64,000 nucleotides of DNA from Sphingomonas sp. (GTDB taxonomy: Bacteria; Pseudomonadota; Alphaproteobacteria; Sphingomonadales; Sphingomonadaceae): NCBI GenBank assembly GCA_025936675.1, contig JAICSX010000001.1, positions 1-64,000 on the forward strand. Direction: 5' to 3'. Made by a program: the position numbers and the translations under genes. Below, piece after piece: positions 1-17,057 of the stretch (positions are counted from its first letter, which is position 1; every line of letters starts with the position of its first letter). The notes under the pieces are model-generated. The model ran no database searches. It was not told where the DNA came from and saw only the letters and a program-made list of their open reading frames with translations.

Positions 1-1
1 G

Positions 2-1657
<1,656 letters not shown>

Positions 1658-1661
1658 TTGG

Positions 1662-3608
1662 TCAGCCGCCCTTCGGCAGCGCTCGTTCCAGTTCTTCGAT
1701 AAGCGGTTGAAGCCACGACCTGTACGGCTCCGCCGAGCCAATCCCCTGGCTGTTGATGGGTCTGCGCACCTGTTCGCTACTCGCCGTTCGCGCCGGCGCC
1801 GTGGAACGATGGAAGTCCACGCATTCCGGCTCAAAATCGAGGCCGAGGAACTTCAGAATGCCGCGGATTCGCTGTTCGGGATCCGTGACGAGTTCCTCGT
1901 AGGAGATTGTGAGAATGCTGCCCGGCGCCGCGGCAGCCATTGAATCCATGAAGCGGACATAATCAGCATAATGTCGCGCAAGGTATCGCTGATCGTTGGC
2001 GTAATCGCCGACTAGAACTCTGCGGAACACGGCCCAACAGGAGTCAAGCGCGTTCCGGCGAATGTCGAGGATCTTGGCATTGGGGAACATCAGCCTGATG
2101 AGACCGGCCCGAATCCAGTTCCCGTTATATTTGTCGATGAAGTGAGGCTTGTCCGTCTGGCGAAACTGCTGCGCGCGTTCCAGATACCAACTTGCCATTG
2201 AGCCAATCTTCTCGCGTGTCAGCTGATCCGGCAGCAGGCTCCTGTACGCAACACTTCTCTCTGCTTGTTCGAGAGCGACGAGCCGGGGCATGAGCGGTAG
2301 CTCGCCCAGGGCTTCGATTCTGGAGTGCTGACCCAAGATTCGCTCGAGCAGAGTTGAGCCCGAGCGCGGCATTCCCACGATGAAGACCGGCGACCTGCTC
2401 GGTGAGCCAAAAGCAGCAAAGCCTTCAAATAGGTCGACCGTACAGGCGCCGATCAACTCGTCAACGTGGCGACTAACTGCGTCCGGATCATAAGCACTCC
2501 CCGTCGAAAGAAGCGCCTGGGCTCTCGTGATCGCCTCGAAGGCTCCCTCGTGATCGCCTCGGCGATCATCGAGAATTGAACTTGCGAGTTGCAGAAAGCC
2601 GAGGTCGCGTGGCCGTGCATTTGGATCATCGATGGCGGACCGCATTTGCTGCTCGTCATCGTCTGACAGCTCGTCGGGGAAATAACTGGCAAGCGTCCAC
2701 CATGCGTGGCCAACTGCGGGTGAAGTTGCGATGATATCGCGAAGTGCTCTGACGCTATCGCTCTTTCGCCCCGCAATACGCAAAACCTGCGCATGCTTAG
2801 ACCGATCCGCAAGGCTGGCTCGGCCGCCAGCGGCAATCTCTTCATAAAGGACCGCCGCAGCAGCAGGAGCGTTCAATTGCGTCCGCAGATCGGCAAGGAA
2901 TCTTTTCGCGCTGGTCTCCTGGGGAACCCGCTTCAGCAGCTCCTCCAGGACTTCAGCGGCTTCTTGCAGGCGTAGCTGCCCCGCAAGCGCGCTAGCGAGG
3001 AGAATGCTCGCTGGCGGAAAGGCCGGCGCCCGATCGATGACCTTGCGCAGCACCGGTTCGACTTCATCGCCAGGGTCGAGTGAAAGTGCTGCCTCCGCAG
3101 CGATGGTCATCGCGATGAGATCGTCAGGATTCTTTTTCAGGTATTCTTCTGCGATTGATCTCGCTTCGCTGCTCCTCCTCGCTTGCTGGGCCGCTCTCGC
3201 GCGCTTGAGCGGCTCCGTGAATCCAAATTTGATGCCTTGGAGTTCCGCCTGCGCAGCTTCTTCAGGGCGGTCCAGCGCGCGCAACGCTGCGGCCACAATG
3301 CGAAATGCTCTTGGACCAGGCATCTCCGATGCGATCCTAGTCGCTCGCGTGAGAGCTGCCCCCGGATCGCTGCATAACAGGCCCGAAGCTATCTTCAGTT
3401 CCTTTTCGGAGCTGGGCGCAGTGGTGCTGTCGTTCGAAATCAGGTGTCTCTGCGAATGTGCATTTTCAATCGCGACATGGCTTAGCGCGCGCTCTCCGCT
3501 GCGGAAATGATATAGTACGAGAGTTCGCGCGTGGTGTTGACGCCGCAGAGCGAAGTCGCTGAAGCGAACGGGTGAACGATCCGTCCAAACCCTTCTTCTT
3601 CCAGGCAC
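1662..3608 (-). CDS. TPR-containing sulfotransferase (first of three)
   Basis: Predicted cytoplasmic enzyme with N-terminal TPR-like helical repeats (about residues 70-330) and a C-terminal PAPS-dependent sulfotransferase domain (Sulfotransfer_3 type, resembling tyrosylprotein sulfotransferases). The 5'-phosphosulfate loop reads P-V-F-I-V-G-M-P-R-S-G-S-T, followed by E-R-I-L-G-Q-H-S. The 3'-phosphate motif reads D-I-R-R-N-A-L-D-S-C-W. No signal peptide is seen. It converges on clpB with a 4-base gap. The 5' end is doubtful. The longest frame starts at a GTG at 3608, inside the divergent gene at 3572 and across the duplicated clpB tail. No further ATG, GTG or TTG occurs in frame until an ATG at 3323, which would cut into TPR-like sequence. 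The true start may be non-canonical, or the 5' end may have been lost in a rearrangement. Confidence 0.8.
   Translation of the reverse strand: MPGRRRVWTDRSPVRFSDFALRRQHHARTLVLYHFRSGERALSHVAIENAHSQRHLISNDSTTAPSSEKELKIASGLLCSDPGAALTRATRIASEMPGPRAFRIVAAALRALDRPEEAAQAELQGIKFGFTEPLKRARAAQQARRSSEARSIAEEYLKKNPDDLIAMTIAAEAALSLDPGDEVEPVLRKVIDRAPAFPPASILLASALAGQLRLQEAAEVLEELLKRVPQETSAKRFLADLRTQLNAPAAAAVLYEEIAAGGRASLADRSKHAQVLRIAGRKSDSVRALRDIIATSPAVGHAWWTLASYFPDELSDDDEQQMRSAIDDPNARPRDLGFLQLASSILDDRRGDHEGAFEAITRAQALLSTGSAYDPDAVSRHVDELIGACTVDLFEGFAAFGSPSRSPVFIVGMPRSGSTLLERILGQHSRIEALGELPLMPRLVALEQAERSVAYRSLLPDQLTREKIGSMASWYLERAQQFRQTDKPHFIDKYNGNWIRAGLIRLMFPNAKILDIRRNALDSCWAVFRRVLVGDYANDQRYLARHYADYVRFMDSMAAAAPGSILTISYEELVTDPEQRIRGILKFLGLDFEPECVDFHRSTAPARTASSEQVRRPINSQGIGSAEPYRSWLQPLIEELERALPKGG
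3537..3566 (+). repeat. direct repeat copy B: displaced clpB tail upstream of a sulfotransferase gene
   Basis: It matches the clpB 3' end (1619-1648) at 27 of 30 bases. In the same frame it reads L-T-P-Q-S-E-V-A-E-A-N-G and then stops at TGA 3573-3575, which overlaps the GTG start at 3572. A clpB-like stop is therefore still coupled to the downstream gene. Confidence 0.85.
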
Positions 3609-5020
3609 TGGACGCGCTGAGGCTCGGAGATCGTCGCGCAGCGGCCGTTCTGCTCAAGCGCCAGCTGCGCGAGGGGAATACGGCGGAGAAAAACCTTGCT
3701 CCCGTATCGGAATTGGCCACGCACATCGGCGAGATCGACCTTGCGATCGAGGCGTCGAGGCAGTGGAATCCCGGCTCACTGGAGTCGTTGCTCGGCGTTT
3801 GGGCGCTCATGGGAACATACGGCAGAGCAAATGAGGCATTGAGGGAGATCGAACGACTGCCGGCTTCGGTCCAAGACCATCCCTCCGTGCTTCATGTGCG
3901 AGGGACCATCGCGACTCAGTTCGGCCGCTTTGAAGAAGCTCAGGAGCTCTATCGAAGGATGCTCGCCAAGACGCCGGGTTCGCTTCAAACCTGGTTTGCA
4001 CTCGCGATGGTCAAGACCTTCACGCCCGACGATCCAGATCTTACCGCCATGGCTGAACTCGAGAAGGTGGCGGCAACAGCGCCGCCGGACGCCGGAAGTG
4101 CGTTCTATTACGGTTTCGGCAAGGCACTGGAGGATGGCGGTGATATCGACGGCGCATTCGCCGCATACTCGCGGGGAGCAGCGATGCGACGCGCTCAAGA
4201 CCCATTCGATGCGCAAGCCTACCGTGTTGCTGCCGAGCAGGTCATCACGGACTTCACGCCGGCAAATCTGGCGAGTCTCAGGCCTTCAGGATTCGAAGGG
4301 CGGCGGTCGCTGTTCGTGACGGGTCTCCCGCGCTCTGGAACGACGCTCACTGAGCAGATGCTGGTCAGCCATTCTGCCGTCAGCGACGGTGCCGAGCTGA
4401 ACCTGTTTGAGACCGCGCTGATGCCCGTACTTGGCAACAGCTACGCAAACGCGGTGCGTTATTCGCAGTCAGCTCGAGCTGACCCTTGGGGGGAGATTGC
4501 TTGCGATTATGCGCACTTGGTGGACGTGCACTTTGGGTCGTCGGATTTGGTTGTCGACAAGTCGCTCGCGCAAGCGCTGGCCATCGGACTGATCCTTCAT
4601 TCAATGCCGGACGCGCGGATCGCCTGGCTTCGGCGCAGCCCTGAAGACGTCGCCTTGTCCTGCTTCAGGACCTATTTCACGACCGGGCTCAAATGGACCT
4701 GCTCTCTAACCGACATCGCAGATTACATGCGGGCTGAAGATCGGCTGTTCGATCATTGGCGCTCGGTTTTCCCCGATCGCATCCTAACGGTGCCCTACGA
4801 AGATCTCGTTGCTGCGCCGGCAGAATGGTCGGAGAAGCTGCAGCGCCATTTCGGACTGCCGATCGAAGCAGGACTGGAAAATCGTTCGCGATCAGGCCGG
4901 TCAATTCGGACGGCGAGCGTCGGCCAGGTTAGCGAACCGATCTCAACGTCGCGGATCGGTGGCTCAGCTGCGTTCAAGAGTCACCTTCAGCCGTTCCGCG
5001 ACCGCTATTACGCCGACTAA
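3572..5020 (+). CDS. TPR-containing sulfotransferase (second)
   Basis: 482-residue TPR-sulfotransferase. Residues ~1-210 form TPR-like helix pairs. The catalytic part has the phosphosulfate loop L-F-V-T-G-L-P-R-S-G-T-T with E-Q-M-L-V-S-H-S (around residue 248) and the 3'-phosphate motif W-L-R-R-S-P-E-D-V-A-L-S. The family transfers sulfate from PAPS to protein or small-molecule hydroxyls; the substrate here is unknown. The start is GTG at 3572, overlapping by four bases (GTGA) a short stretch that repeats the clpB tail. This implies that the gene was once translated directly after clpB. No signal peptide. It is distinct from, not a recent copy of, the neighbouring sulfotransferases. Confidence 0.88.
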   Translation: MNDPSKPFFFQALDALRLGDRRAAAVLLKRQLREGNTAEKNLAPVSELATHIGEIDLAIEASRQWNPGSLESLLGVWALMGTYGRANEALREIERLPASVQDHPSVLHVRGTIATQFGRFEEAQELYRRMLAKTPGSLQTWFALAMVKTFTPDDPDLTAMAELEKVAATAPPDAGSAFYYGFGKALEDGGDIDGAFAAYSRGAAMRRAQDPFDAQAYRVAAEQVITDFTPANLASLRPSGFEGRRSLFVTGLPRSGTTLTEQMLVSHSAVSDGAELNLFETALMPVLGNSYANAVRYSQSARADPWGEIACDYAHLVDVHFGSSDLVVDKSLAQALAIGLILHSMPDARIAWLRRSPEDVALSCFRTYFTTGLKWTCSLTDIADYMRAEDRLFDHWRSVFPDRILTVPYEDLVAAPAEWSEKLQRHFGLPIEAGLENRSRSGRSIRTASVGQVSEPISTSRIGGSAAFKSHLQPFRDRYYAD

Positions 5021-5063
5021 TTCTCAGGCTGCTGTGCATTAGCCCAGCGCTTCTCATCATCGC

Positions 5064-5096
5064 AAAAGAAAAGGGGCGGCGCTTTCGCACCGCCCC
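5064..5096 (-). terminator. rho-independent terminator of the TonB receptor gene at 5122-8514
   Basis: On the minus strand a 10-pair GC-rich stem (5087-5096 with 5073-5082, one G-T pair) closed by a four-base GAAA loop is followed by the T-rich run TTTTCTTTT. It lies 26 bases beyond the receptor stop codon. Confidence 0.85.
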
Positions 5097-5121
5097 AATC
5101 CTTGTTCCAAGCTAACCAGCC

Positions 5122-8100
5122 TTACTGGCCACGCTCCGGCGCCGGAGCCGGCGGCGGCGGTGGCGGCGGCGGGACCGGGCAGGTCGCGGTCGCCAAGATC
5201 ACCGAGCCATCCGGGCAGGTCTGCGTCGCAGGCGGAGCCGGCGGCGGAGGTGGTGGCGGCGGCGGAGGCGGCGGCGCAGGCGGAGCCGGCGGCGCGCCAC
5301 CCCACAGCACGTCTAGGCCAAGCCGGACGTAGCGCGGAGTCTGGTAGTAAAGCGGAATGCCGTAGTCCGGGTTCGGACGGTAGCACTCTTGGGCCCCGTC
5401 GCAGACGGCCTTCGTCGAACCAATGCTGTGCGCGTTCTCGTGCTGGGCATTCTTTTGAAGCACAGCGTGCGAGTTGAACACGTTGAACACGTCCGCACGG
5501 AAGACGATCTTCCGATTGTCGGCACCCAACGGAATGTTCACGCGAGCCGAGAGGTCCAGCTGCTTCAACCAATCAGACTTCCATCCAGCGCCGCGCGGCG
5601 ACGGTGAAGTCGCCTGGTAATAACCGTGCGCATCTAGTGCGCCGGAACCGCAGAAATGGCTGACCGAACCATAGAAGCTCGACGGGTCGTACACGACGGG
5701 CTGCGGCAGGTACGGGTGATAGCCAAGGCACGAGCCATGCATCGGGGACTGCACAATGACGTTCGCGCCGAGCGTGAACATCTGGCCGAAGTGGTAAGCA
5801 CCGAACAGCTTGAAGTTCCAGCGGTGGTCGTTCGGCAACAGACCGTACGAATAATCGCTGAGCCCAAGATAGTCGAAGTCCTCCGTCGATCCGGCGTCCG
5901 CCTGGGCGCCGTTGCCGGCATCAGACTTCACCGTACCTTCGGTATTACCCTTCAGCTTCGACCAAGTGACAGAACCGCTGGCCATCCAGTGACCGTCGTC
6001 GACACGATTGAAGTCGAGGACGACCGACTTGTAGGTGCGCTGGACCTTCGGGAAGAGCATTCCCGTGGTCAACGTGACCGGCGTAGCCTTGCCGCTCAGT
6101 GCGTCGTACCAGTCGTTCACGGTCAGCGACGTCGTCGGCGACACGTTCCAGATGTAATAGGCGCTGTTGCCGGCCGCATAGAAGCTGCACTGCGGGCTCG
6201 TCGGAGCCTTGCTGCACCAGTAGGCCTGGAGCTGTGGCCGGAAGTCGGTGTCTTCCGAGACGCGGGCCAGCTTGCGGTACGTACCCTGGATGCCGAAGCT
6301 TAGCAGGCGGTTCGCCTGGAAGCGGGTACCGAGGATGAACTCGTCCTCGTACGTGGCCTTCGTTCCGGGCGCAACCTTGGCAATCGCCGGGTTTTGGACG
6401 CCACCACCTGCTACGTAGCAAGCCGCGTTGCCCGCAGCATTGGTGCCGTTAATGGGGTGGCCGGGCGCCGACGAAATGTCGGCCGGGCATTCCGAGTAGC
6501 CCGCGATACCTGGGTAAGCAGAGCCCAAGTCAGACGTCGGCATGCCGGTAACCGGATCCCAGCCGCCAGTATAATTGAACGCTTCGAAGAAATAGAGATC
6601 CTTGCCACGGAAACCAAGGTTCATCGCCGGCGGGATGAAGTACCGGCCGTAGCTGCCGAAGAACTTCCACTTGTCAAGCGAAGGCGGCGTGTAAGTGAAC
6701 GACGCACGGGGGCCCCAATTGCCCTTGAAGTTCATATATTGCTGGCCCGACAGGTTCGTCTGCCTGAACTCGTCGTCACGAAGACCAACGTTGATGGTCA
6801 AACCCTCGAGCGGAGTTGTCCACGAATCTTCGATATAATAGGCTGTGTCGTTGCCGGACACGTGGCCACCGAGATGCTCGTAGATCAGGTACGCATAGCC
6901 GTTGTTGTACTGATACTGGATCGGAAGCGTACCATTCAGGTCCGTCGTCTTCAGCTCGCTCAGATCTTCGTTGTCGAAGCCCAGGCGGATATGGTGCTGG
7001 CCGAATCCGCTGAAGCGGATGTCGGCGTCGCCGCGGTAGAAGCGGCGGCGCGTTTCGTCGGTCGATCGCCCGGTGAACGGCTGATCGGCCGACACACGGA
7101 CCGCGCTGCCGGCGGGCATTCCGGTGCATGTGAATGTCGTGGTGATGCAACGCGCCAGAGCGTAGTTCAACGTGGTTGAGCCCGGAATGACGTCGCCCGC
7201 GTCCTTGCTGACGCCGTAGGCGCCCGACAGGGTCAGCCAATTGGTGACGTCGCCGGTGTAACGCGCGACCCAGTTCAACCCGCCCCTCTTGAGCTGCTCC
7301 GTTCCGTTCAACAACGGCGCCCCAATGGTGCCGCCGGTGCAGGTTGTGTTCGTCGCGCCGGACGGCCCGGTGCAACCCGAGCCGGGCGTGAACGCATAAT
7401 CGTAGAGAGTCGTGGTCGCACGCGTGTCGAAAATCGTGAATTCGGCGTGCTGCGTCGGGTTGATGTAGGCGTCGATCTTGCCGCCCCAGAACGGATCGTT
7501 GGTCTTTGCGCGCTCGAACAGCTTGTTGCGCGCGTCGGCCCGCTCGGTGGTGTTCCGCTGCGGCTCGATGAGGCCGTAGACGAACAGGTGATCGGGGATG
7601 ATCGCTCCGCCGCCCTCGAGCGTCAGCTGCTTGCTATCGCTCCTATTCATCCGTCCGATGTCATAGGGGGCGCCACTGCCCGTATTCGGACCGTGCGACT
7701 GAAGACCCTTCGGGGTCCAGTCGATGTGCATGGCCAGGAACGGGATGTTCGTACCCGACTTTGTCGTCGCGTTGATGACGGCGCCCGTCGCGCGGCCGAA
7801 TTCAGCCGCATAGCCGCCGGTCTGCACGTCCACGTTCTTATAGAAATAGAACGGGACTCGCGCGGAACCGATGTAGGTGTCCGGGTTCGTGATGTTGAGG
7901 CCGTTGATGTAGTAGGCGTTTTCCGCGACCGACGAACCGCCGACGGTCGGGACTGCGTCGCCGCCGTGGGTGAAGGCCGTCACGCCCTTAGACGCGGTCG
8001 GCGCAAGGAGCGTAATAGACGTAATGTCGTGCCCGATCGGCGCGTTCGCATTGACCTGCTGAACGTCGACGTTGAGGCCGGTCGTTGCCGCGGTCTGCGT

Positions 8101-8514
8101 CTGGCGCAGACGGGTGCCGGTGATGATGATCTCGCGGCTGGCGGTCGCCGGAACGACGTTCAGTGTGATCCGGTTCGTCTGCGCGGCAGCGATCGTGATC
8201 GTGTTGTTATTGGGAGCATAGCCGGAGGCGTTGACGGAGATCGAATAATCGCCCGCCGGAAGACCCACTGCGCTGAAGTTACCAGCGCCGTCGGTTGTGA
8301 GAGTACGTGTCTGGTTCTGCGCGAGCGAGGTGAGCGTCACCGTCGCGCCCGCAATCGGCTTTCCACTATTGTCGGCCACGGTGCCGGCGATCGCGCCGGA
8401 GGTGTAGTCCTGGGCCGCGGCCGGCGTGGCCGCGATAAAGGTAGTTGCCGCGCCGGCGCCGAGCAGCGCAAGCGCTTGAATGCCCGCAGACGCGCGCAAA
8501 ATCGATTTCCTCAT
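5122..8514 (-). CDS. TonB-dependent receptor with carboxypeptidase-like domain and polyproline C-terminal tail
   Basis: 1130-residue outer-membrane receptor of the Oar-like group. From the ATG at 8514 (preceded by GGGGAG) it has a signal peptide ending in A-A-A-Q-D, a carboxypeptidase regulatory-like beta domain (about residues 35-115, G-A-I-A-G-T-V start), a plug opening with E-I-I-I-T-G-T-R, and a long beta-barrel. The barrel ends near R-Y-V-R-L-G-L-D-V-L-W. Instead of stopping at an aromatic residue, the protein continues ~60 residues. This tail has two runs of prolines around a C-P-D-G-S-V-I...C-P element and ends G-Q. It lies in the same direction as, and downstream of, the hydroxylase and sulfotransferase genes at 8760-11793, with a 245-base gap that probably holds its own promoter. 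The ligand is unknown. A longer in-frame start exists at 8559 but lacks a ribosome site. Confidence 0.93.
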   Translation of the reverse strand: MRKSILRASAGIQALALLGAGAATTFIAATPAAAQDYTSGAIAGTVADNSGKPIAGATVTLTSLAQNQTRTLTTDGAGNFSAVGLPAGDYSISVNASGYAPNNNTITIAAAQTNRITLNVVPATASREIIITGTRLRQTQTAATTGLNVDVQQVNANAPIGHDITSITLLAPTASKGVTAFTHGGDAVPTVGGSSVAENAYYINGLNITNPDTYIGSARVPFYFYKNVDVQTGGYAAEFGRATGAVINATTKSGTNIPFLAMHIDWTPKGLQSHGPNTGSGAPYDIGRMNRSDSKQLTLEGGGAIIPDHLFVYGLIEPQRNTTERADARNKLFERAKTNDPFWGGKIDAYINPTQHAEFTIFDTRATTTLYDYAFTPGSGCTGPSGATNTTCTGGTIGAPLLNGTEQLKRGGLNWVARYTGDVTNWLTLSGAYGVSKDAGDVIPGSTTLNYALARCITTTFTCTGMPAGSAVRVSADQPFTGRSTDETRRRFYRGDADIRFSGFGQHHIRLGFDNEDLSELKTTDLNGTLPIQYQYNNGYAYLIYEHLGGHVSGNDTAYYIEDSWTTPLEGLTINVGLRDDEFRQTNLSGQQYMNFKGNWGPRASFTYTPPSLDKWKFFGSYGRYFIPPAMNLGFRGKDLYFFEAFNYTGGWDPVTGMPTSDLGSAYPGIAGYSECPADISSAPGHPINGTNAAGNAACYVAGGGVQNPAIAKVAPGTKATYEDEFILGTRFQANRLLSFGIQGTYRKLARVSEDTDFRPQLQAYWCSKAPTSPQCSFYAAGNSAYYIWNVSPTTSLTVNDWYDALSGKATPVTLTTGMLFPKVQRTYKSVVLDFNRVDDGHWMASGSVTWSKLKGNTEGTVKSDAGNGAQADAGSTEDFDYLGLSDYSYGLLPNDHRWNFKLFGAYHFGQMFTLGANVIVQSPMHGSCLGYHPYLPQPVVYDPSSFYGSVSHFCGSGALDAHGYYQATSPSPRGAGWKSDWLKQLDLSARVNIPLGADNRKIVFRADVFNVFNSHAVLQKNAQHENAHSIGSTKAVCDGAQECYRPNPDYGIPLYYQTPRYVRLGLDVLWGGAPPAPPAPPPPPPPPPPPPAPPATQTCPDGSVILATATCPVPPPPPPPPAPAPERGQ

Positions 8515-8759
8515 CACATTCTCCCCAGACGACGTCCCTGCGCAGGACGCCAATCGCAAACGGTGGGAGAACGAGCTCCCACTGCCAAGTGCGTTCTGCC
8601 TATGGTAAGAGCGTGCTGTAAAGTTTGTTACGGAGTTGGGTTCGCTTTTGATTCACGACTGTGTCGGAGGCGCCACACCCCTCCAGCCACCCCTAACTAA
8701 TGGTAGCGTTATCATTTCTTCTGACAGCAGAGGCCGCGAAATCTGAGCGTCTGATATCC

Positions 8760-10478
8760 TCAGAACGCATAATGTCCGCGGGACATGGCATCACCAACGA
8801 TCGGCAGCACCGACTCGAGTTCGCTTGCGAAGTTCTTCCACCTTCCCACCGCAGTTTCGTTCAGCGGCTGCACGACCTGCGCATAGCTCGGCGTAGCCGG
8901 CACTGTACCGCGTTCGTGAAATTTTAGCTGAGCTGGTTCTATCTCAAGTCCGATTGCTGACATCAAACGCTCGGTCTCGGCGAGCTGGTTCGCGACAAGC
9001 GATTCATATCTCAGTTGATAGGTCGCCCCGATTCCCGCCTCGCTATATTTCTGAAGCAGCCAATCAGACAGGGCGAGATGGCGCGCAGCATCCTCCAACC
9101 GGTACGTGGAATTGAACCCGTGGGTCATTTCGTGCGCCATGGCCGACGTCAGAACATCGAGCGGGTGACGGCGCACATGAATGACCGGCGATTCGGGAAA
9201 GGCTAGTCGCAGCAGGGGAACCCAGAAGTCGTTCGTCGGCATCTTGTCGGTGAAATAGCGCCCGGCGCTCCTCAGCAGGCCGTACTTCTCGGCTCCGGCC
9301 AAATAGCGATCGCGCATCTTCGTGGGCCAATCGGATTGTGCGCGCACAAGCCCGGCTGGGAAGGACCACTCGCCTCCCGCGAGCGATACTGCGAGCTCGT
9401 GAAGTTCGCCACCGAAAGGTAGCTCGCCTCCCGCCTCCACCGCACTGTGGCTCGCCAGGATTCGTTCCGTGAGCGTCGTTCCAGAGCGCGGGAAACCGAC
9501 GATAAAGATGGGCTGTGGAACGTCCTCGCGAAGTTTCGCTCGCGGCAGGCTCGCCCCGGCGGGGGAAGCAAAGAAGCCGGCCAAGCTCTCCGCCAAGTTC
9601 CGCACCGCTTCCTGCGGGTACTTCCGGCCAGAGAGCGCAGCGAGCTTTTCCTTGCCGTTCGACCAATCGCTCCATGCTTCAGCATAGCGCCCGACGCGTT
9701 CGCGCAGGCGTCCTCGCTGGATTTGCTCGGTACCGAGGATCTCCGTCTTGCTATCGAGCAACGCAAGCGCCTGTTGATGCTGTCCCATGCGATCCAGCAG
9801 AATTGCTCGCTGTCGGTCCAAGCTGGCATTTGGCGGCAGAGGCATGCGTTGAGCATTCTCGAGGTGCCGCAATGCCGCCTCGAACCGCCCCTCACGTTCC
9901 TCCAGTTCGGCTAGATAAACGGTCGGCTCGAATGCATTCGGATCGGCCTTCGCCGCACTCTCGAGCGCTGCTCGCGCTTCCTCGAGCCGACCCAGTCGAA
10001 GAAAGACATGCCCCAGGCGAGTAAGCAGTTGTGGGTTTGGACCAGCGAGCGAGACAGCCTGTTGGAAGTGCTCAGCAGCTTCGAACGCGTCCAGGCGAGC
10101 CACACACAGCGATCCCAGCCTTTCATGTGCGTCGGCATTCCCTGGATCGGCCGCCAGCGCCGCGCGGCAGACCTGCTCAGCTTCCGCGGGGCGGTCGCGC
10201 CTCATCAGCAACTCCGTGAGGCCCGCATAAGGCCAGCGCAGCCGCGGGGCCACCGAGATGGCCATTCGAAGCGTCTGTTCCGCGGCTTGATCGTCCCCGC
10301 GCTCGATCTCTGCGATCGCCTTGATTTCGAGCGCGTCTACGTCCCTCGCATTCTGCCGTAAAATTTGAGCGGCTATTGCGTGCGCTGCGTCGAATTTCCG
10401 GGCCTGGATGGCGTGGCGTCCCGCCCAGATTTGCTGCGATAGGCCTGTAGAGTTCATACGCCGGGCAACTCGCGTCAT
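8760..10478 (-). CDS. TPR-containing sulfotransferase (third)
   Basis: 572 residues. The N-terminal ~280 residues are canonical TPR repeats (several A-x2-L-x3-A-x4-P patterns). The C-terminal sulfotransferase domain has the phosphosulfate loop F-I-V-G-F-P-R-S-G-T-T with E-R-I-L-A-S-H-S and the 3'-phosphate motif H-V-R-R-H-P-L-D-V-L. It lacks a signal peptide, so it should act in the cytoplasm on a nascent or unexported substrate. It follows the AspH-type hydroxylase gene by 52 bases in the same direction, suggesting one transcript. An alternative ATG lies 21 bases inside (10457). The substrate cannot be read from sequence. Confidence 0.9.
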   Translation of the reverse strand: MTRVARRMNSTGLSQQIWAGRHAIQARKFDAAHAIAAQILRQNARDVDALEIKAIAEIERGDDQAAEQTLRMAISVAPRLRWPYAGLTELLMRRDRPAEAEQVCRAALAADPGNADAHERLGSLCVARLDAFEAAEHFQQAVSLAGPNPQLLTRLGHVFLRLGRLEEARAALESAAKADPNAFEPTVYLAELEEREGRFEAALRHLENAQRMPLPPNASLDRQRAILLDRMGQHQQALALLDSKTEILGTEQIQRGRLRERVGRYAEAWSDWSNGKEKLAALSGRKYPQEAVRNLAESLAGFFASPAGASLPRAKLREDVPQPIFIVGFPRSGTTLTERILASHSAVEAGGELPFGGELHELAVSLAGGEWSFPAGLVRAQSDWPTKMRDRYLAGAEKYGLLRSAGRYFTDKMPTNDFWVPLLRLAFPESPVIHVRRHPLDVLTSAMAHEMTHGFNSTYRLEDAARHLALSDWLLQKYSEAGIGATYQLRYESLVANQLAETERLMSAIGLEIEPAQLKFHERGTVPATPSYAQVVQPLNETAVGRWKNFASELESVLPIVGDAMSRGHYAF

Positions 10479-10530
10479 CTAGCGGATTGGGCAAGACATT
10501 TTGCATCAGCCCCGCGGCGAGAGCCGGTGT

Positions 10531-11793
10531 TCACGCGATTTTTTGCGCGTCAGCGACCGCGAAAAGGCGGCAGATCATCTCCCGCTCGTGCTCGCTGAGG
10601 TGCGGATTCCAGCAGTCGAGTATCAAAATCGCTCGGTCCTCGCCGCTACGGTTCCACGCCTCATGTTCGATCGTGTCGTCGAACGCGAAGGCCTCGCCCT
10701 TGCGCCACTCGCGGGTCTCGCCGCCTACACGAAAGCTGCAGCCCGGGGGCACGATCAATGGCAGGTGAATGATCGTGCGGGTGTTCGTAACGCCAGTGTG
10801 CGGCGGGATGTGCTCCCCCGCGCGTAGAATGGAAAAGAAGGCGGTCGGAGCGCGGCCCGCCACCCTCGCCAGCGGTAGCCCTTCGACGATCTCTGTCGTC
10901 TTCGGCGCCCGCTCGCAGGCACTGTCGATACGCTCGCCGTCCTTCCATAGGTGTAGCGCGCTCCAGGCCGGTGAGTTGTTGAGCTCGGTCCAGACGTTCT
11001 CGGGCGTTCCCGGCGGCATCGTCACGTATGGTGCCAGGCCCGGATCCTCCGATTCGAGAAGCTCGATCAGCTCGGCGCGGATCACGTCCGTCGAGGATTC
11101 GAGCTCCGCAAGCCAGGGAAAGAGATCGCGGTCGAGGAACTCGTCAGCCGGGACGAACGGATAATGAAGCCCGAAGCACTGGTTCATGTAAACCCGCCGC
11201 CGGCCGAGCATATGATCGATTGCCGCGGTGATGCGACGGCGATCGCGTGGCGAAGCTTTCTCGAGATCTCTGTCGAGCTCCTTTTGCAGCGCGCTCCCGA
11301 GGCTCTCGTTGCACTTAGCGACGAACGCCCGCGCGTGATCGAACATGCGTTGCAGGTCGGGTGGCGCGTTCGGGTGCTCTGACGATAGTTGCGCAACTCC
11401 AGACCAACACAGCATCGCATCGGCAAGCTCTCCGCGGCGCTCGTGCAGCTCGGCCAAACGGATCAGCGCCATCAAGTGACGCTGGTCGGTCTCGAGAGCC
11501 GACTCCAGCGCCGCTCGCTCACCCTCGTCATTTCCACCCAACCGGTGCGCCTTGGCGAGATTAAGCCATAGAGCGGCAGCTCCCGGATCAGCCTGCGTTG
11601 CGGCTTCGAAATGCCGCTGCGCTTCGACTAGATCCCCCCGGTCGAGCGCCTCGACACCAAGCATGTTGTGGGCTCTGGGATCGTCATCGCGAAGGCGAAG
11701 CGCGGCTTCGGCTTCCCGGACCATATCCGCACGACGGCCCTGCTGTTGTGCCTGGATCGCCAAAGCGAGATGCTGCTCGACCGTCGTCGCCAC
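10531..11793 (-). CDS. TPR-fused aspartyl/asparaginyl beta-hydroxylase (AspH family)
   Basis: 420 residues. Residues ~1-140 are TPR repeats. The C-terminal ~190 residues are an Asp/Asn beta-hydroxylase double-stranded beta-helix, a 2-oxoglutarate and Fe(II)-dependent oxygenase. The expected two-histidine iron site is visible as P-P-H-T-G-V-T-N-T and E-H-E-A-W-N, with the 2OG-binding arginine shortly after (E-D-R-A-I-L-I-L-D). The family hydroxylates Asp/Asn side chains in proteins or small molecules. The TPR part suggests a protein partner. The gene is divergent (45-base gap) from the prolyl-hydroxylase-like gene at 11839 and precedes the third sulfotransferase in the same direction. Confidence 0.92.
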   Translation of the reverse strand: MATTVEQHLALAIQAQQQGRRADMVREAEAALRLRDDDPRAHNMLGVEALDRGDLVEAQRHFEAATQADPGAAALWLNLAKAHRLGGNDEGERAALESALETDQRHLMALIRLAELHERRGELADAMLCWSGVAQLSSEHPNAPPDLQRMFDHARAFVAKCNESLGSALQKELDRDLEKASPRDRRRITAAIDHMLGRRRVYMNQCFGLHYPFVPADEFLDRDLFPWLAELESSTDVIRAELIELLESEDPGLAPYVTMPPGTPENVWTELNNSPAWSALHLWKDGERIDSACERAPKTTEIVEGLPLARVAGRAPTAFFSILRAGEHIPPHTGVTNTRTIIHLPLIVPPGCSFRVGGETREWRKGEAFAFDDTIEHEAWNRSGEDRAILILDCWNPHLSEHEREMICRLFAVADAQKIA

Positions 11794-11838
11794 GATGCGC
11801 GAAATGACTGCTGATTCCGCGCGAGGTCAAGCTGTGGC

Positions 11839-12807
11839 ATGAGCTTCATGCAGATGGCCGACGGCACGCTCAACGACGCTTTACGACTGATCGAGGCCAA
11901 CGACGCCCGCGGGGTCGAGCTCGTGCGCACAATCGCATCGCGCGGCGATCCGGATGGCCTGTTCTTGCTTGCGCAGTTGATGCTGAGCGGAACAATGGTC
12001 CCGCAGGACGCGATCAGAGGGCGGCAGCTGCTCGAAGCTGCAGCATCACGAGGCCATGGCCAGGCGAACATCATCGTAACCAATCTGCTCGCCAGCGGAG
12101 TTGCGGGAAAACGCAACTGGCAAGCCGCGGTCGAGCGCCTCGCCGCTGAAGCGCGAGTCATTCCCGAGCGGCGAGCCGCGCTTGAGCTGATTCAGTCGAT
12201 GCATCTCGATGCAGAAGGCGATCCGCTCACCGCGCCGCAGTCGAAATCCTTATCGGTTCGGCCGCTTGCCATGCTTTTCGAGAGAATTCTCGCCCCTTCG
12301 GAATGCGCGTACCTGATTGGGATGACCGGCGATCTGTTCGAACCTTCGATGATTTATGACGATTCAAATCGGCGTGTCCGGGATACGATCCGGACTTCCG
12401 ATGGTGCGACGATCAACTGGTTGGCGGAGGATCCGGCAGTCCACGCGCTGAACCGGCGCATCGCTCATGCGACGGGAACACGGTACGAAGACGGCGAAGC
12501 CTTGCAAGTGCTCCGTTACTCACCGGGCCAGCAATACCATCCGCACTTCGATTGGATCGACGCAGCCGAGAACCAGCGGATCTGGACGGCGCTCGTCTAT
12601 CTGAACGATGAATATGAAGGTGGCGCCACCCGCTTCGTCCGCACGGGGCTGGAGGTACGCGGTTCTACCGGCGACATGCTCCTCTTTTCCAACGCGGACG
12701 AGGAGGGCAACGGCGACCCTCTCGCCGAGCACGCCGGCCTCCCGGTCACTGCGGGCACGAAGTTCCTCGCGACGCGCTGGATCCGCGAAGCGCGCTGGAT
12801 TCCATAA
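11839..12807 (+). CDS. prolyl 4-hydroxylase-like 2OG-Fe(II) oxygenase with helical-repeat N-terminus
   Basis: 322 residues. The first ~130 residues look like Sel1/TPR helical repeats (G-D-P-D-G-L-F-L-L-A-Q-L-M-L-S pattern). The C-terminal half is a P4Hc-type oxygenase. The iron ligands appear as H-x-D in Y-H-P-H-F-D-W and a distal His in A-E-H-A-G-L-P-V, and the 2OG-binding Lys in G-T-K-F-L-A-T-R-W. Known relatives hydroxylate proline in polyproline-like or loop peptides. No signal peptide. It is divergent from the AspH-family gene, so the two hydroxylases could share a control region. It is followed by a bidirectional terminator. Confidence 0.92.
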   Translation: MSFMQMADGTLNDALRLIEANDARGVELVRTIASRGDPDGLFLLAQLMLSGTMVPQDAIRGRQLLEAAASRGHGQANIIVTNLLASGVAGKRNWQAAVERLAAEARVIPERRAALELIQSMHLDAEGDPLTAPQSKSLSVRPLAMLFERILAPSECAYLIGMTGDLFEPSMIYDDSNRRVRDTIRTSDGATINWLAEDPAVHALNRRIAHATGTRYEDGEALQVLRYSPGQQYHPHFDWIDAAENQRIWTALVYLNDEYEGGATRFVRTGLEVRGSTGDMLLFSNADEEGNGDPLAEHAGLPVTAGTKFLATRWIREARWIP

Positions 12808-12808
12808 G

Positions 12809-12845
12809 AAAAGGGCGGACCCGAAGGCCCGCCCCTCCCCTTTTT
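12809..12845. terminator. bidirectional rho-independent terminator
   Basis: A stem of 12813-12821 with 12826-12834 (one A-C mismatch) around a CGAA loop is followed on the plus strand by a C/T run ending in TTTTT, and on the minus strand by TTTTCTT. It serves the oxygenase gene and the convergent TonB receptor gene. Confidence 0.8.
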
Positions 12846-12861
12846 ACCGCGTTGAACTTGC

Positions 12862-15800
12862 TTAGAACTTGATCCGTGCGCCCGCGGCGAACGTGCGACC
12901 GAGCGGATCGTAGGTCGACGGGAATGTATTGCCGCTGTTGAAGGCAGCAGTACCCGCGTTGTTGCCGACGACCGGCGGATCCTTGTCGAAGATGTTCCGA
13001 ACGGTGAACGTCAGGTCGAAGTGCTCGTTGACGTTGAACCGGGTCGAAAAGTCGAAGTAGCTCATTGGCGAAATATGGTTGTAGTTCACCGTCTGCCCGT
13101 TGAACGTTCCCGGCGTCCCCGCCGGCAACGACGCCGTGAAAGTAGTGGCGACCGTTCCGTCGAACAGGTAGCGATTACAGACCACCGGCGACCCATTGTA
13201 AGTCCCCGTCTGCGCGCCCGTACCCAACGGACGGCAATTGGATCCTGTGAACCCGCGAGCCGCAAAGTCGGATGCAGTGCCCTCATAGTCGACTCCACTG
13301 AGGAAGCGCCACAGTACCGACAGGTCGACCTTCCCCAACGATAGTGTCGTACGAGTATTGAACGACCATTTAGGTGCTGGCGTGGTACAGTTCACACTGT
13401 AGTAGCCCACGCACTCGCGATTGATGGATGTCGGCGTTGCCTGGAACTTGCTGCTGTGCGTCCAGTTGCCGCCGAGTGCGAGCGCGATCTTCGCAGGGCT
13501 GCCGACCCAGGTACCGAGACCACGTCTGTAGTCGAGCGTGAAGTCTACACCATCCGTCGAGATCTTACCCAGGTTCGACAGCTGCCGCGGCAAGCCGAAG
13601 GTGGTCGCCGGGCTTCCGGACAAACCACCCGTCGTCGGGTTACGTCGGATTCCCGTGCAGGCTGGATTGCTCGCCGAAGATGCGGACAGTCCGTTGAAGC
13701 ACAAGCCGATGACGTCGCCTGCCGTCGGAGCAGACACCGCGTCGCTGACCTTGATATTGTAATAATCGACCGTCGCATTCAGGCCCGGCACGAACCGCGG
13801 CCGAAGCACTGCGCCAACCGTCCAGGTCTTTGCAGTTTCCGGCTTCAGGAATGGGTTTCCACCCGAGGTCTGGTTGGCCTGTCCCGAGATCGGCGTAGGA
13901 ATAGCGCCGATCGATCCGGCCGGAGCACCCTGGGCAATACAGACCGCAGCCAGATTGGGATCGCTCAGCGGAGCCGCCCCAGCGCACGGGTCGGAAGTCA
14001 GTGCGATCAGGCCCGTTGTTACCGGCGTGAAGAGCTCGCCGATATTTGGAGCGCGAACGGCATGGTTGTACGCGCCGCGGAACTTGAGGTCGCGTACGGG
14101 AGCCCAGCTGCCTGCCAGCTTCCAGGTCGTCGTGTTGAACTTCGGCGTTCCCGGAGCCTGGATCGTGTAGTGCGACCGGCGGATGCCGGCTTCGAGCTGA
14201 AGCTCGTCGAAGAACGGCCGGTCGGAGATGATCGGCGCAATGACTTCGGCAAAGCCTTCGTAGACGTCGAGGCCGCCCTTGATGTTCGGGGCCGCGCCGC
14301 CGGCGCCGCCCAGCTCACCCGGAGTCTGGGCGAGAAGGTCGGCCTGCTGCGATGCGAAATATTTGCGATATTCGGCGCCAACCGCGAAGCTGACTGGGTT
14401 CCGCGCCCAGAGCTGCAGCGGCGTATCGCCGTTGATCGTGCCATGAGCCTGCGAAAGCCTGGTCCGGACGCGCGTCGTCGAGGGCTGGCTGATGAACGCC
14501 GCCATCGCCGGTGTGATGCTTCCCTCAGGTCCAAAGATATTCAGCGGGACGCACCCGTTGGTGTTGGTCAAGCAGGTATTTGGATCGACCGCGAGCAACG
14601 CCTGTAGCTGGCGCGACGTGAGCGCATAGTTCTGGATCGTCTGGACCTTGTCGCTCTGGCCCTTCGATCCCCACAGGTCGAAACCGATTTTGTCGGTGAT
14701 GTCGCCGCGAAGTCCGGCCCGGAAGTCGAACATCGTGGTGTTGTAGTCACTGATACGCGGCCCGAGCTCGGGCATGCGGCGGTTCGCCTGGAACGTGATC
14801 GTGCGATAATCCGGGTTCGGCGTCTTACCGTCAGCCAGGAATGGCCCAAAGGTCGTGGTCGCCGCCGCCTGGCACTGAGCAGCTGTTGGCGGCTGAATGC
14901 CCTTGGTCACTGAATCGGTATCGATCTCGTTGCAGAGGAACAGCCTCTGCGCCTGTGTCAGGAACGGGTTGTTGATGTTGACGGTGACATTCTGGGAGAA
15001 GAGTCCCGAGGGCGCGATGATCGTGTCGACCGTATTGTTGTTGTACATGCCGCGCGAATAAACGGTCAGGTGGTCCGTGATGTCATAGTGCGCGGCCGCA
15101 AACATGTTGTAGCGTTTGAACGGCGTCTGGAAGACGTTGTATGGGTTGAAGTTATATCCCTGGTAGAATGGAACGATCGAAGTGCCCGTCGGGTCGACCT
15201 GATAGGAATTCGCGTCGGATGTGAAGTTGAGCTTGGTCGGCGTAGTGGTCGACGACGTCGCCCCATTGAGATCGCCAGGATTGACCGAGCTCAACGCGAC
15301 GTTCGAATAGGGCCGGTCGTGGCCCTGGTAGATTGGATCCGACTCCTGGTAGCCGAGGCTGATCACGGCATTGCCGCGGCCGTCGGCGAAGTTCGCGCCG
15401 AGCGTGAGATCGCCGCGCTTGTACATGCCATCGCCGCGTTGCGTGACCTGGTCGGAAACCGCCAGCTCCATGCCCGCGAAGTCGCTGCGGGTGATGAAGT
15501 TGACAACGCCGCTGACCGCGTCAGCACCGTAGGTCGAGCTCGCGCCGCCGGTCAGCACGTCGACGCGATCGATCAGCGCAAGCGGAATGTCGTTGAGGTC
15601 GACGCGGCCGGTGAGGTCCACCGGAACGATCCGGACACCGTCGATGAGGACGATATTACGGTTAGAACCGAGGCCGCGAAGGTTGACGTATGCCGAACCG
15701 CCGCTGCCGTTGTTCACCTGCGCGCCGATGCTCGGAGCGGCGCCCGGGATGGTACGGAGGATTTCTTCGGCGGTGTTGGTCTGGCGAAGCTGGACTTCGT

Positions 15801-16101
15801 CATGGCCGAGGACGGTGACCGGGGCGGATGCAACCAGGTTCGGGTTGCGGATCAACGTACCGGTGATGACGATCTCTTGGCTGGCGGTGGGTTCGGCCGG
15901 CTTCGAGGATTCGTTCGACTGCACGCCCGCGGGCGGAGTCTGGTCGCTTGGCGCTGCAGGCGGAGTATTGCCCTGTGTATCCGTCGGCGTGACCGGCGCC
16001 GGAGGCTGCGGCGCGTTCTGCGCGAATGCGGGTGTTCCCAGCGTCACGCCTGCAATGATGGTGGTCGCGAGCAGCGACCCCTTGAATGTGCTCTTCGACA
16101 T
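12862..16101 (-). CDS. TonB-dependent receptor with proline-rich N-terminal segment
   Basis: 1079-residue outer-membrane receptor. The ATG at 16101 follows an A-A-G-G-G-G-A Shine-Dalgarno. There is a signal peptide to about A-F-A-Q-N, then a ~55-residue Pro/Thr/Ser-rich linker, the plug beginning E-I-V-I-T-G-T-L with the V-N-L-R-G-L-G and V-L-I-D-G-V-R motifs, and a barrel. The chain ends in A-R-I-K-F with the terminal phenylalanine usual for BAM-assembled porin-like proteins. The substrate is unknown. In many sphingomonads such receptors take up siderophores, glycans or oligopeptides, but nothing here decides. It converges with the 2OG-oxygenase gene. Confidence 0.94.
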   Translation of the reverse strand: MSKSTFKGSLLATTIIAGVTLGTPAFAQNAPQPPAPVTPTDTQGNTPPAAPSDQTPPAGVQSNESSKPAEPTASQEIVITGTLIRNPNLVASAPVTVLGHDEVQLRQTNTAEEILRTIPGAAPSIGAQVNNGSGGSAYVNLRGLGSNRNIVLIDGVRIVPVDLTGRVDLNDIPLALIDRVDVLTGGASSTYGADAVSGVVNFITRSDFAGMELAVSDQVTQRGDGMYKRGDLTLGANFADGRGNAVISLGYQESDPIYQGHDRPYSNVALSSVNPGDLNGATSSTTTPTKLNFTSDANSYQVDPTGTSIVPFYQGYNFNPYNVFQTPFKRYNMFAAAHYDITDHLTVYSRGMYNNNTVDTIIAPSGLFSQNVTVNINNPFLTQAQRLFLCNEIDTDSVTKGIQPPTAAQCQAAATTTFGPFLADGKTPNPDYRTITFQANRRMPELGPRISDYNTTMFDFRAGLRGDITDKIGFDLWGSKGQSDKVQTIQNYALTSRQLQALLAVDPNTCLTNTNGCVPLNIFGPEGSITPAMAAFISQPSTTRVRTRLSQAHGTINGDTPLQLWARNPVSFAVGAEYRKYFASQQADLLAQTPGELGGAGGAAPNIKGGLDVYEGFAEVIAPIISDRPFFDELQLEAGIRRSHYTIQAPGTPKFNTTTWKLAGSWAPVRDLKFRGAYNHAVRAPNIGELFTPVTTGLIALTSDPCAGAAPLSDPNLAAVCIAQGAPAGSIGAIPTPISGQANQTSGGNPFLKPETAKTWTVGAVLRPRFVPGLNATVDYYNIKVSDAVSAPTAGDVIGLCFNGLSASSASNPACTGIRRNPTTGGLSGSPATTFGLPRQLSNLGKISTDGVDFTLDYRRGLGTWVGSPAKIALALGGNWTHSSKFQATPTSINRECVGYYSVNCTTPAPKWSFNTRTTLSLGKVDLSVLWRFLSGVDYEGTASDFAARGFTGSNCRPLGTGAQTGTYNGSPVVCNRYLFDGTVATTFTASLPAGTPGTFNGQTVNYNHISPMSYFDFSTRFNVNEHFDLTFTVRNIFDKDPPVVGNNAGTAAFNSGNTFPSTYDPLGRTFAAGARIKF

Positions 16102-16310
16102 TACGTTCCCCTTTCGAATGCGGCCCGCGACCGCAAACCTCCCGCCAGTTGAACCAGCGCTGATTGCGTTTCCTACGTGTAACAATGAGGGCGAATCAAT
16201 CGGACGTGGCGGCGAGCCGACAAATCATGGCTGTTATGTTGCATTTGGGGCACAGGTTGCTTTTCGGCCAAAGTTGCTCTCGATTCGCAGCGGCAGGGAG
16301 GGGGAATAAG

Positions 16311-16847
16311 ATGATGCAGGCGCCGCAAATGCGCATGTTCTTTGCTGTAGTGCTGCTGGCGTCGGCGGGACCGATCGTCGCTAAGGAAAAGCCTGCGCCC
16401 TCGCCGCTGGTCAATGCAATCGACCATTGCCGCCAAATCACGGACCCGACGCAGCGGCTCGCTTGCTACGATTCTGCGGCAGCGGCTTTGGTCAATGCGA
16501 CGACGACCGGCGAAGTCAGCATCGTCGACCGGAACGAGGTGCGCAAAGTCCGCCATTCGCTGTTCGGCTTCAGCCTGCCGAAGATTCCGTTCTTCTCCGG
16601 CGACACAACGGCCAACGAAGCCCAGGACAAGCTCGACTCGACGATCACGAGAGTGACCGCGCTCAACAACGGCTATTTCCAGATCGTCATCGCCGACAAT
16701 AATGCGGTGTGGGTGACGACCGACGACTACACGAACTTCGATCCGCCGCGAGTGGGGCAGAAGATCGAGATCGTCCGCGGCGCGCTCGGAAACTACTTCT
16801 TACGCATCAATGGCCAGAACGGCGTTCGAGGGAGACGCGTCGGCTAA
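16311..16847 (+). CDS. exported protein with C-x(n)-RLACYD motif
   Basis: 178 residues starting at the ATG at 16311, just after a strong GGGAGGGGG ribosome site (longer in-frame starts upstream lack one). A signal peptide (M-F-F-A-V-V-L-L-A-S-A-G) is followed by a short element with H-C-R-Q-I and R-L-A-C-Y-D. This two-cysteine signature is found in many small periplasmic proteins, including TagO-like ones. The second half has a beta-rich region (G-Y-F-Q-I-V-I-A-D-N...V-W-V-T-T-D-D). The function is unknown. Its stop overlaps the convergent DUF2093 gene by four bases. Confidence 0.8.
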   Translation: MMQAPQMRMFFAVVLLASAGPIVAKEKPAPSPLVNAIDHCRQITDPTQRLACYDSAAAALVNATTTGEVSIVDRNEVRKVRHSLFGFSLPKIPFFSGDTTANEAQDKLDSTITRVTALNNGYFQIVIADNNAVWVTTDDYTNFDPPRVGQKIEIVRGALGNYFLRINGQNGVRGRRVG

Positions 16848-17053
16848 CGGCCGACAGCGCGCTGCTCGGCCTTGAGGCTCGCTTCGGCGTCGACATAGGG
16901 CTCCTGCCGCTCGACGCTCCAATATTTGAGCTCGTGGAGCGGAATCTTGCTGCCGGTGACCGCGCAGACCACATGGTCTCCGTCGCTGAGCAGGCGGAAG
17001 GTTCCTGGAAGATAGTGGATGCGAGCGGCCCGGCCGCTTCCGCTCATCAGCAT
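16844..17053 (-). CDS. DUF2093 domain protein
   Basis: 69 residues matching the small alphaproteobacterial DUF2093 family: I-H-Y-L-P-G-T-F-R-L-L, then V-C-A-V-T-G-S-K-I-P-L and L-K-Y-W-S-V-E-R-Q-E. The family's function is unknown. The ATG at 17053 is preceded by AGAGGA; a second ATG lies at 17047. It begins four bases after the xseA stop, so the two are almost certainly co-transcribed, an arrangement that is common in the order. Confidence 0.85.
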   Translation of the reverse strand: MLMSGSGRAARIHYLPGTFRLLSDGDHVVCAVTGSKIPLHELKYWSVERQEPYVDAEASLKAEQRAVGR

Positions 17054-17057
17054 GCGT

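Follow-up and report, generated by a model that had tools for sequence, protein, structure and literature searches.

The locus described here lies near one end of a 64,000-nucleotide stretch of Sphingomonas sp. DNA (GCA_025936675.1, contig JAICSX010000001.1, positions 1 to 64,000; the window). It contains three TPR-fused sulfotransferases (STs; STA, STB, and STC), a TPR-fused member of the aspartyl/asparaginyl beta-hydroxylase family (AspH), a repeat-fused prolyl-4-hydroxylase-like oxygenase (P4H), and two large TonB-dependent receptors (TBDRs; TBDR1 and TBDR2). All of these parts belong to known families. The window STs align in their catalytic domain with the tyrosylprotein sulfotransferases TPST1 and TPST2, but they are bacterial, carry a fused N-terminal TPR, have no signal or anchor obvious by eye, and are encoded beside TBDRs. 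In human AspH the TPR precedes the oxygenase domain, and the window AspH has the same order and the same conserved HTG, HE, and R residues, whereas it shows no lumenal targeting and has no known EGF-domain substrate here. Similarly, P4H shares its catalytic domain with solved prolyl 4-hydroxylases but is fused to Sel1-like repeats and sits in a TBDR neighborhood. RaxST, encoded by Xanthomonas raxX-raxSTAB, is also a bacterial tyrosylprotein sulfotransferase that acts before export, and the part of PMC6637879 that describes it names three essential residues, an Arg, a Glu/His base, and a Ser, of which the window STs all have the first two kinds and STB and STC the third. The likeness is to the description of RaxST, and the window cluster differs in that no RaxX-like peptide (small open reading frames [ORFs] were inspected in the largest gap) and no type I secretion genes were seen. 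Isopeptidase-type lasso clusters likewise place peptide-modifying enzymes beside a TonB-dependent transporter (PMC9266682, in its passages on these clusters), and the names AspH and sulfotransferase stand beside lasso-type names in a table of PMC10040529. In contrast, no cyclase, B2 protein, isopeptidase, or precursor is found among the window cluster genes. What is new in the locus is the regular pairing of such enzymes with receptors, and we know of no described system of this kind. A search of the open-licence literature returned no description of ST/AspH-TBDR pairing, an absence that is weak evidence in that body of text. The same literature yielded nothing on an association of TBDRs with Trp-halogenase/SapC, a lead whose families were not searched for, and the portion of PMC5945002 consulted does not mention TonB.

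The best-supported result reaches beyond the cluster itself: TPR-STs are mostly neighbors of receptors, with or without a hydroxylase. In 20 ST loci, a random draw from 81 positions themselves taken from about 150 listed PF13469 matches, 16 of the 22 ST genes had a TBDR within 600 bp, whereas the figure for control genes was 13 of 326 (Fisher P = 2.6e-15, to be read as a guide only since the genomes are related). A first receptor profile was too narrow (7/22 ST genes versus 13/330 controls). The sequences of the ST neighbors showed that receptors had been missed, and a wider profile was then built from ST-adjacent receptors and used in the same way on cases and controls; when eight of the ST-neighbor receptors were compared with Pfam, all eight had a Plug domain above the cutoff. 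The control regions were 40 random loci, 12 of which contained a TBDR (13 receptor genes in total); in one of them (L161) an ST lay beside a TBDR, STs being excluded from the control genes. Placement across whole genomes, for which gene ends were approximated from where the domain lies and how far the frame stays open (with an overlap of 826 bases in one case), gave the same picture. In three genomes chosen for many STs and long contigs and not at random (G035, G018, and G040, with 42, 44, and 56 Plug matches), 18 of the 20 listed TPR-ST genes (8, 8, and 4 per genome; the best 20 of 29 ST matches) were within about 240 bp of a TBDR, while random placement in the same genomes yielded a mean of 1.6 and a maximum of 7 of 20 in 3,000 trials. 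Three further genomes, at least two of them apparently outside the order Sphingomonadales, had entered the analysis via their AspH loci (G006, with 3 STs, was left out). In these, 7 of 12 STs were within 800 bp of a TBDR, with about 5% expected, and 4 of 8 when the four STs in the loci that brought the genomes in were removed. Genes for such enzymes and receptors thus co-occur more often than chance, as seen with the control genes, the random placement, and the counts in AspH and receptor loci given below.

The partner receptors belong to at least three kinds (receptors of about 800 amino acids, the Oar-like TBDR1, and TBDR2-like receptors), so that what the pairs share is a receptor rather than any particular ligand; judged by eye, the flanking genes vary from pair to pair. 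At four loci (L123, L126, L127, and L136), the ST-TBDR pair lies beside genes that look like FAD-oxidoreductase, PuuD, or peptidase genes, and these catabolic-looking neighbors hint at nutrient uptake.

All five enzymes of the window cluster combine a TPR or TPR-like solenoid with a catalytic domain of a protein-modifying kind. Their resemblance to protein-modifying enzymes, proposed in the earlier note, was upheld, as the nearest solved relatives were TPST1/2, human AspH, and prolyl 4-hydroxylases. A profile of 22 ST sequences matched TPST1/2 best in the PDB (8.6e-33 to 1.1e-29; 3ap1, 5wri, and 8w5z), with CurM as the next kind (5.5e-20) and small-molecule sulfotransferases also behind. STA, STB, and STC all score above the Sulfotransfer_3 cutoff of 27 bits and share only 27 to 29% identity in local alignments, and they are therefore probably long-standing paralogues rather than products of a recent expansion. 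The Arg of the 3'-phosphoadenosine-5'-phosphosulfate (PAPS) loop and the Glu that follows it are invariant in 22/22 aligned sequences, and the Ser of the second PAPS motif is nearly so. This Ser is kept in STB and STC, while STA has an Ala in that column, so that two of the three RaxST-type residues are present throughout and the third is missing from STA. The same Ala occurs in L053:1765-2532. The STs are TPST-like and presumably use PAPS. The catalytic half of AspH, which carries the conserved residues of the PF05118 domain, matched human AspH (5apa and 5jqy; 2.7e-30); an AlphaFold model of the TPR-AspH protein, poor in the oxygenase part (pLDDT 63.6, from a narrow alignment), was not used. 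The P4H profile matched 2jig, which we take to be an algal prolyl 4-hydroxylase, at 8e-35, and a second solved relative at 6e-31 (relatives 2jig, 3itq, and 5hv0). Its residues H236, D238, H298, and K308 (HxD, H, and K) align with 2jig and are invariant in 21 sequences. We assume that the aligned AspH and P4H residues are those that bind iron or 2-oxoglutarate (2OG). The Sel1 match of P4H in Pfam is below the cutoff (22.7 versus 30.7 bits), and the N-terminal part of the family profile matches solved Sel1-repeat proteins (e.g., 6ok3, 4.4e-13).

The hydroxylase was followed in loci found by scanning contigs with an AspH alignment (the best 80 of 88). These came mostly from Sphingomonadales and also from Steroidobacter, a Caulobacterales bin, and gammaproteobacterial bins. 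A TBDR recognized by a profile grown from TBDR2 was present in 62 of the 80 loci and absent from 18, and 51 loci held a TBDR plus an enzyme other than AspH. The other families were distributed as follows: ST in 41 loci, c0 (a secreted protein) in 37, c1 in 36, c9 in 12, P4H in 6, and c16, a short PF13640 oxygenase, in 5. Relatives of the genes flanking the window cluster recurred as well (clpB in 27 loci, xseA in 28, and purD in 25), and part of the conservation therefore reflects one ancestral site, with the other loci lying elsewhere. The c9 family (e.g., L074:9999-11504, minus strand) has a TPR fused to a PF13759 2OG-FeII_Oxy_5 oxygenase and is a frequent neighbor of TBDR2-like receptors that lack AspH. 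The c1 family (e.g., L017:8912-9967, minus strand) has no Pfam match. It aligned with the ST profile (hhalign probability 95%, E = 3.5e-8), and the 22 best PDB matches of its AlphaFold model (pLDDT 90.8) were all sulfotransferases, with TPST2 first at a Foldseek probability of 1.00 and modest TM-scores of 0.35 to 0.44 by query length. By profile and model together, c1 is a divergent protein of the sulfotransferase fold.

Across 60 Sphingomonadales genomes taken as a fixed set, 55 contained a PF13469 match and 31 a PF05118 match. Of the 48 PF05118 matches, the 37 strong ones (E < 1e-30) were counted and 11 weak, short ones were left out of the counts. A TBDR2-like receptor above 580 bits was found in 14 of the 37 strong AspH loci and in none of 40 random 20-kb regions. 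Approached from the receptor, at least one enzyme of the cluster type was present in the fetched stretch at 16 of the 25 loci of the best TBDR2-like matches (T1) and at 6 of 19 mid-scoring loci (T2; 20 drawn from 76, one of which, G025:C5 [L100], was counted in T1), versus 2 of 40 random regions. Ten flanking genes scanned in the partnerless T1 and T2 loci included no modifying enzyme of these families; they encoded another TBDR and M23, XseA, RtcB, AbiTii, acyltransferase, argininosuccinate synthase, DUF885, AraC-type, and solute-binding proteins. Conservation of the neighborhood outside this strain, the test set beforehand, came out in favor, with the families linked to TBDRs in many genomes. 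The proposal of one system acting on a shared substrate fared less evenly: the linkage of the families stood, while a fixed composition did not, the ST-TBDR pair being the commonest unit and usually lacking a hydroxylase. AspH, P4H, c9, and c1 are optional partners that come and go.

The frequency of the pairing suggests that chemical decoration of the receptors, or of something tied to them, may take place. Because what recurs most is a receptor together with repeat-bearing kin of protein modifiers, in surroundings that vary, the receptor chain is most simply read as the client. The genes would then form cassettes in which each TPR-ST serves the receptor encoded beside it and modifies it before export, a proposal that we hold tentatively and at somewhat less than an even chance. 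In the cytoplasm, the newly made, unfolded receptor chain would be bound by the TPR solenoid, and Tyr (or another hydroxyl) would be sulfated by the catalytic domain of the ST before Sec export. TPR-AspH and Sel1-P4H, where present, would hydroxylate Asp/Asn and Pro on the same client, and the decorated receptor might differ in surface charge and in ligand or partner binding. The gene pairing, the enzyme kinship, the conservation of most catalytic residues, and the repeat domains are the observations from which we infer the receptor as client, the timing, the modified residues, and the purpose. Sulfated receptors occur elsewhere, as animal chemokine receptors carry sulfotyrosine. A more doubtful extension is that in Alphaproteobacteria and some gammaproteobacteria most TPR-STs are one-to-one partners of an outer-membrane receptor that they sulfate in the cytoplasm before export, with hydroxylation by AspH, P4H, or c9 in some loci, and that the resulting sulfotyrosine or hydroxylated residues tune ligand choice or help to evade phages or bacteriocins. 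If the reading is true, it would describe a widespread bacterial system for modifying cell surface proteins, built from enzymes of types familiar chiefly from the secretory pathways of eukaryotes, and it would explain many of the "TPR sulfotransferase" and "AspH" genes of sphingomonads. The arrangement of one receptor and one enzyme makes the question directly testable, and if a ligand or peptide were the client the pairing would still provide a genomic handle on receptor function. The RaxST/RaxX pair provides a precedent for sulfation before export (PMC6637879, in its account of RaxX).

A number of observations weigh against the receptor as client. Within the fixed set, only 9 of the 37 AspH loci had a TBDR of any kind 600 bp or less from the AspH gene (the first profile gave 10 of 38), and the 20 kb fetched contained no enzyme of the cluster type at 9 of the 25 T1 loci and 13 of the 19 T2 loci. 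In animals, TPST and AspH work in the secretory pathway and not in the cytosol. One group of TPR-AspH genes (L063, L066, L070, and L072) has no TBDR nearby, and in L003 an intact-looking AspH (435-amino-acid ORF) has only a weak TBDR-like ORF of 151 amino acids beside it. The search for a modified site gave no clear signal: among 134 TBDR2-like receptors labeled by linked enzyme, comparison of alignment columns between AspH-linked (n = 76) and unlinked (n = 38) receptors yielded no convincing discriminating Asp, Asn, Pro, or Tyr site, and the seven columns that passed the filter look like general motifs of the receptor family. With the 800-amino-acid profile, ST-paired receptors (n = 15) had more Tyr than others (n = 37; 4.9% versus 3.5%), more acidic-Tyr, and many differing columns, an excess that was not counted because the paired receptors are probably more closely related to each other.

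Enzymes found together away from receptors count against it as well. By eye, a listed ST lay no more than about 5 kb from 4 of the 11 weak, short AspH matches. Two STs in the three-genome count had no close TBDR, and one of these (G035:C1:1287005) was about 1.5 kb from such a match; in G012 a short AspH match adjoins a PF13471 (lasso B2-type) gene (G012:C1:2788729-2789603). The table in PMC10040529 lists, for Pontixanthobacter/Allopontixanthobacter, clusters in which lasso B2, sulfotransferase, AspH, sulfotransferase, PqqD, and asparagine synthase carry neighboring numbers, which we take to follow gene order. These cases leave room for a peptide substrate, and perhaps ST and AspH can pair without a TBDR and act on a peptide. 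In L125 (G049:C6), a TPR-ST lies near a short AspH-family match with no close TBDR, and this locus and G035:C1:1287005-1289547 are possibly a second, peptide-directed context.

Were the ligand and not the receptor modified, a peptide or small molecule that is imported (or made, exported, and taken up again) would be sulfated or hydroxylated in the cytoplasm. TBDRs import ligands, 2OG oxygenases and sulfotransferases also modify small molecules, and some ST-TBDR pairs lie, by eye, beside catabolic- or peptidase-like genes. Furthermore, beyond clpB in some relatives there is an M17 aminopeptidase (tested with Pfam), together with apparent M16, M28, and penicillin acylase genes. We nevertheless consider this explanation unlikely, although a serious contender, since the same kind of TPR-ST pairs with several receptor kinds in differing surroundings, sulfation would not be expected as a catabolic step, and the nearest solved relatives of the enzymes modify proteins. 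Somewhat less probable again is a client other than receptor or ligand, namely a further protein or a ribosomal peptide (c0, a periplasmic partner, or a RaxX-like or lasso-type peptide encoded elsewhere), of which the receptor would be the user or importer. The presence of c0 in the window and in so many AspH loci fits this, as do the sulfation of the small peptide RaxX by RaxST before secretion (PMC6637879, same account), the transporter of isopeptidase-type lasso clusters (PMC9266682, same passages), the clusters tabulated in PMC10040529, and the G012 gene pair. However, c0 also accompanies TBDRs at loci where no enzyme is seen (L178, L199, L212, and L213) and occurs in only 1 of 20 ST loci. 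In addition, none of the 37 strong AspH genes or the listed STs was found by eye within 10 kb of the 28 PF13471 matches in the same 60 genomes, and the largest gap of the window cluster (8480-8800) contains only chance-like ORFs of 20 to 75 amino acids, apart from TBDR1, STC, and an ORF antisense to TBDR1, although a precursor may lie elsewhere in the genome.

Modification of a lipid or envelope glycan, with proximity to receptors arising from shared envelope function and common regulation, seems improbable. The AspH superfamily includes LpxO and OlsC, many sulfotransferases act on such substrates, and AspH scores 81.7 bits with the NCBIfam model of OlsC and 54.4 bits with that of LpxO; yet these scores are far below the cutoffs of 450 and 500 bits, the catalytic half of AspH finds its PDB match in human AspH, with which it shares the preceding TPR, and a general lipid enzyme would not need a copy for each receptor, as the numbers of listed TPR-STs per genome would imply. 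Least probable of all, to a point where we give it very little weight, is that abundant TBDRs make the neighbors coincidental or that the neighborhood was inherited once. One site is common to many AspH loci, and TBDRs occurred in nearly a third of the random regions, but the pairing recurs at many sites and with several receptor kinds, and hitchhiking by receptor abundance was rejected by the comparisons with control genes and with random placement.

The features of the window cluster are listed in Table 1. The earlier note had described the content of the cluster as given above, with no unrelated gene between, and this agreed with the ORFs and Pfam matches; intergenic gaps are 45 to 245 bases, so that only very small ORFs could fit between the genes. 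Its limits, set at 1662..16101, are better extended to include c0. The cluster lies between clpB (2-1657) on one side and c0-xseA-purD (16164 onwards) on the other.

Table 1. Gene order and features of the cluster and its immediate border in the window
Feature	Positions	Strand	Details
STA, TPR-sulfotransferase	1662-3608	-	Sulfotransfer_3, 138.9 bits; TPR_16; start codon uncertain
STB, TPR-sulfotransferase	3572-5020	+	Sulfotransfer_3, 110.3 bits; TPR_14; convergent with TBDR1
Terminator-like hairpin, 10 pairs then T-rich	5073-5096	-	3' of TBDR1, between TBDR1 and STB
TBDR1, Oar-like TBDR	5122-8514	-	ORF called to 8559; signal-peptide ATG near 8514; CarboxypepD_reg, 71 bits
STC, TPR-sulfotransferase	8760-10478	-	Sulfotransfer_3, 105.8 bits; several TPR; same strand as AspH and TBDR1
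AspH, TPR plus aspartyl/asparaginyl beta-hydroxylase family	10531-11793	-	PF05118, 147.3 bits; TPR
P4H, Sel1-repeat prolyl-4-hydroxylase-like 2OG-Fe(II) oxygenase	11839-12807	+	PF13640, 59.4 bits; divergent from AspH
TBDR2, TBDR of ~1,080 amino acids	12862-16101	-	ORF called to 16185; ATG near 16101; barrel, 112.8 bits; Plug, 81.1 bits
c0, secreted protein of ~180 amino acids	16164-16847	+	Profile match 1.7e-53; actual start lies after the first start codon

As called, the STA and STB ORFs overlap, which implies a later start for at least one of them. AspH, STC, and TBDR1 form a run on the same strand, with AspH upstream and gaps of 52 (AspH-STC) and 245 (STC-TBDR1) bases, while STB and TBDR1 converge at a spacing of 101 bases. 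Terminator-like sites were not in excess over the whole region (9 found versus 12.3 expected in shuffled sequences), and no RNA element reached the gathering threshold in positions 1 to 20000. Judged by eye, the N termini of the cluster enzymes have no obvious signal peptide or anchor. No precursor of the ribosomally synthesized and posttranslationally modified peptide type was found in the window, where the largest gap was the one inspected.

TBDR2 has both of the expected receptor domains, Plug and barrel. TBDR1 has a Plug match of 21.3 bits, under the cutoff of 23.9, and no barrel match; together with its CarboxypepD_reg domain, this led us to read it as a divergent receptor of the kind that we label Oar-like. 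It ends in a C-terminal polyproline/CPDGS tail (5122-5301, minus strand), which is a possible target of P4H, although the tail was not seen in those TBDR1 relatives inspected, a further point against receptor modification. Of the four best TBDR1 homologues in the 60 genomes, three have an ST directly beside them, in tandem in L215 (TBDR1 then ST, about 70 bp apart) and L082 and convergent in L195. No ST was present in the fetched stretch around the fourth (L216) or around five more remote homologues (L217 to L221).

The c0 protein has a C...RLxCYD motif and a weak VasI match below the cutoff, and it often accompanies receptors of the TBDR2 kind. Beyond clpB, the M17 aminopeptidase has a signal-like N terminus and is accompanied by genes that by eye resemble M16 and penicillin acylase genes (L006, L017, L030, and L039 to L041). 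The receptor-free AspH group of L063, L066, L070, and L072 adjoins c27, which by eye is a gene for a UvrD-like helicase, and in L073 AspH is in pieces with TBDR fragments beside it.

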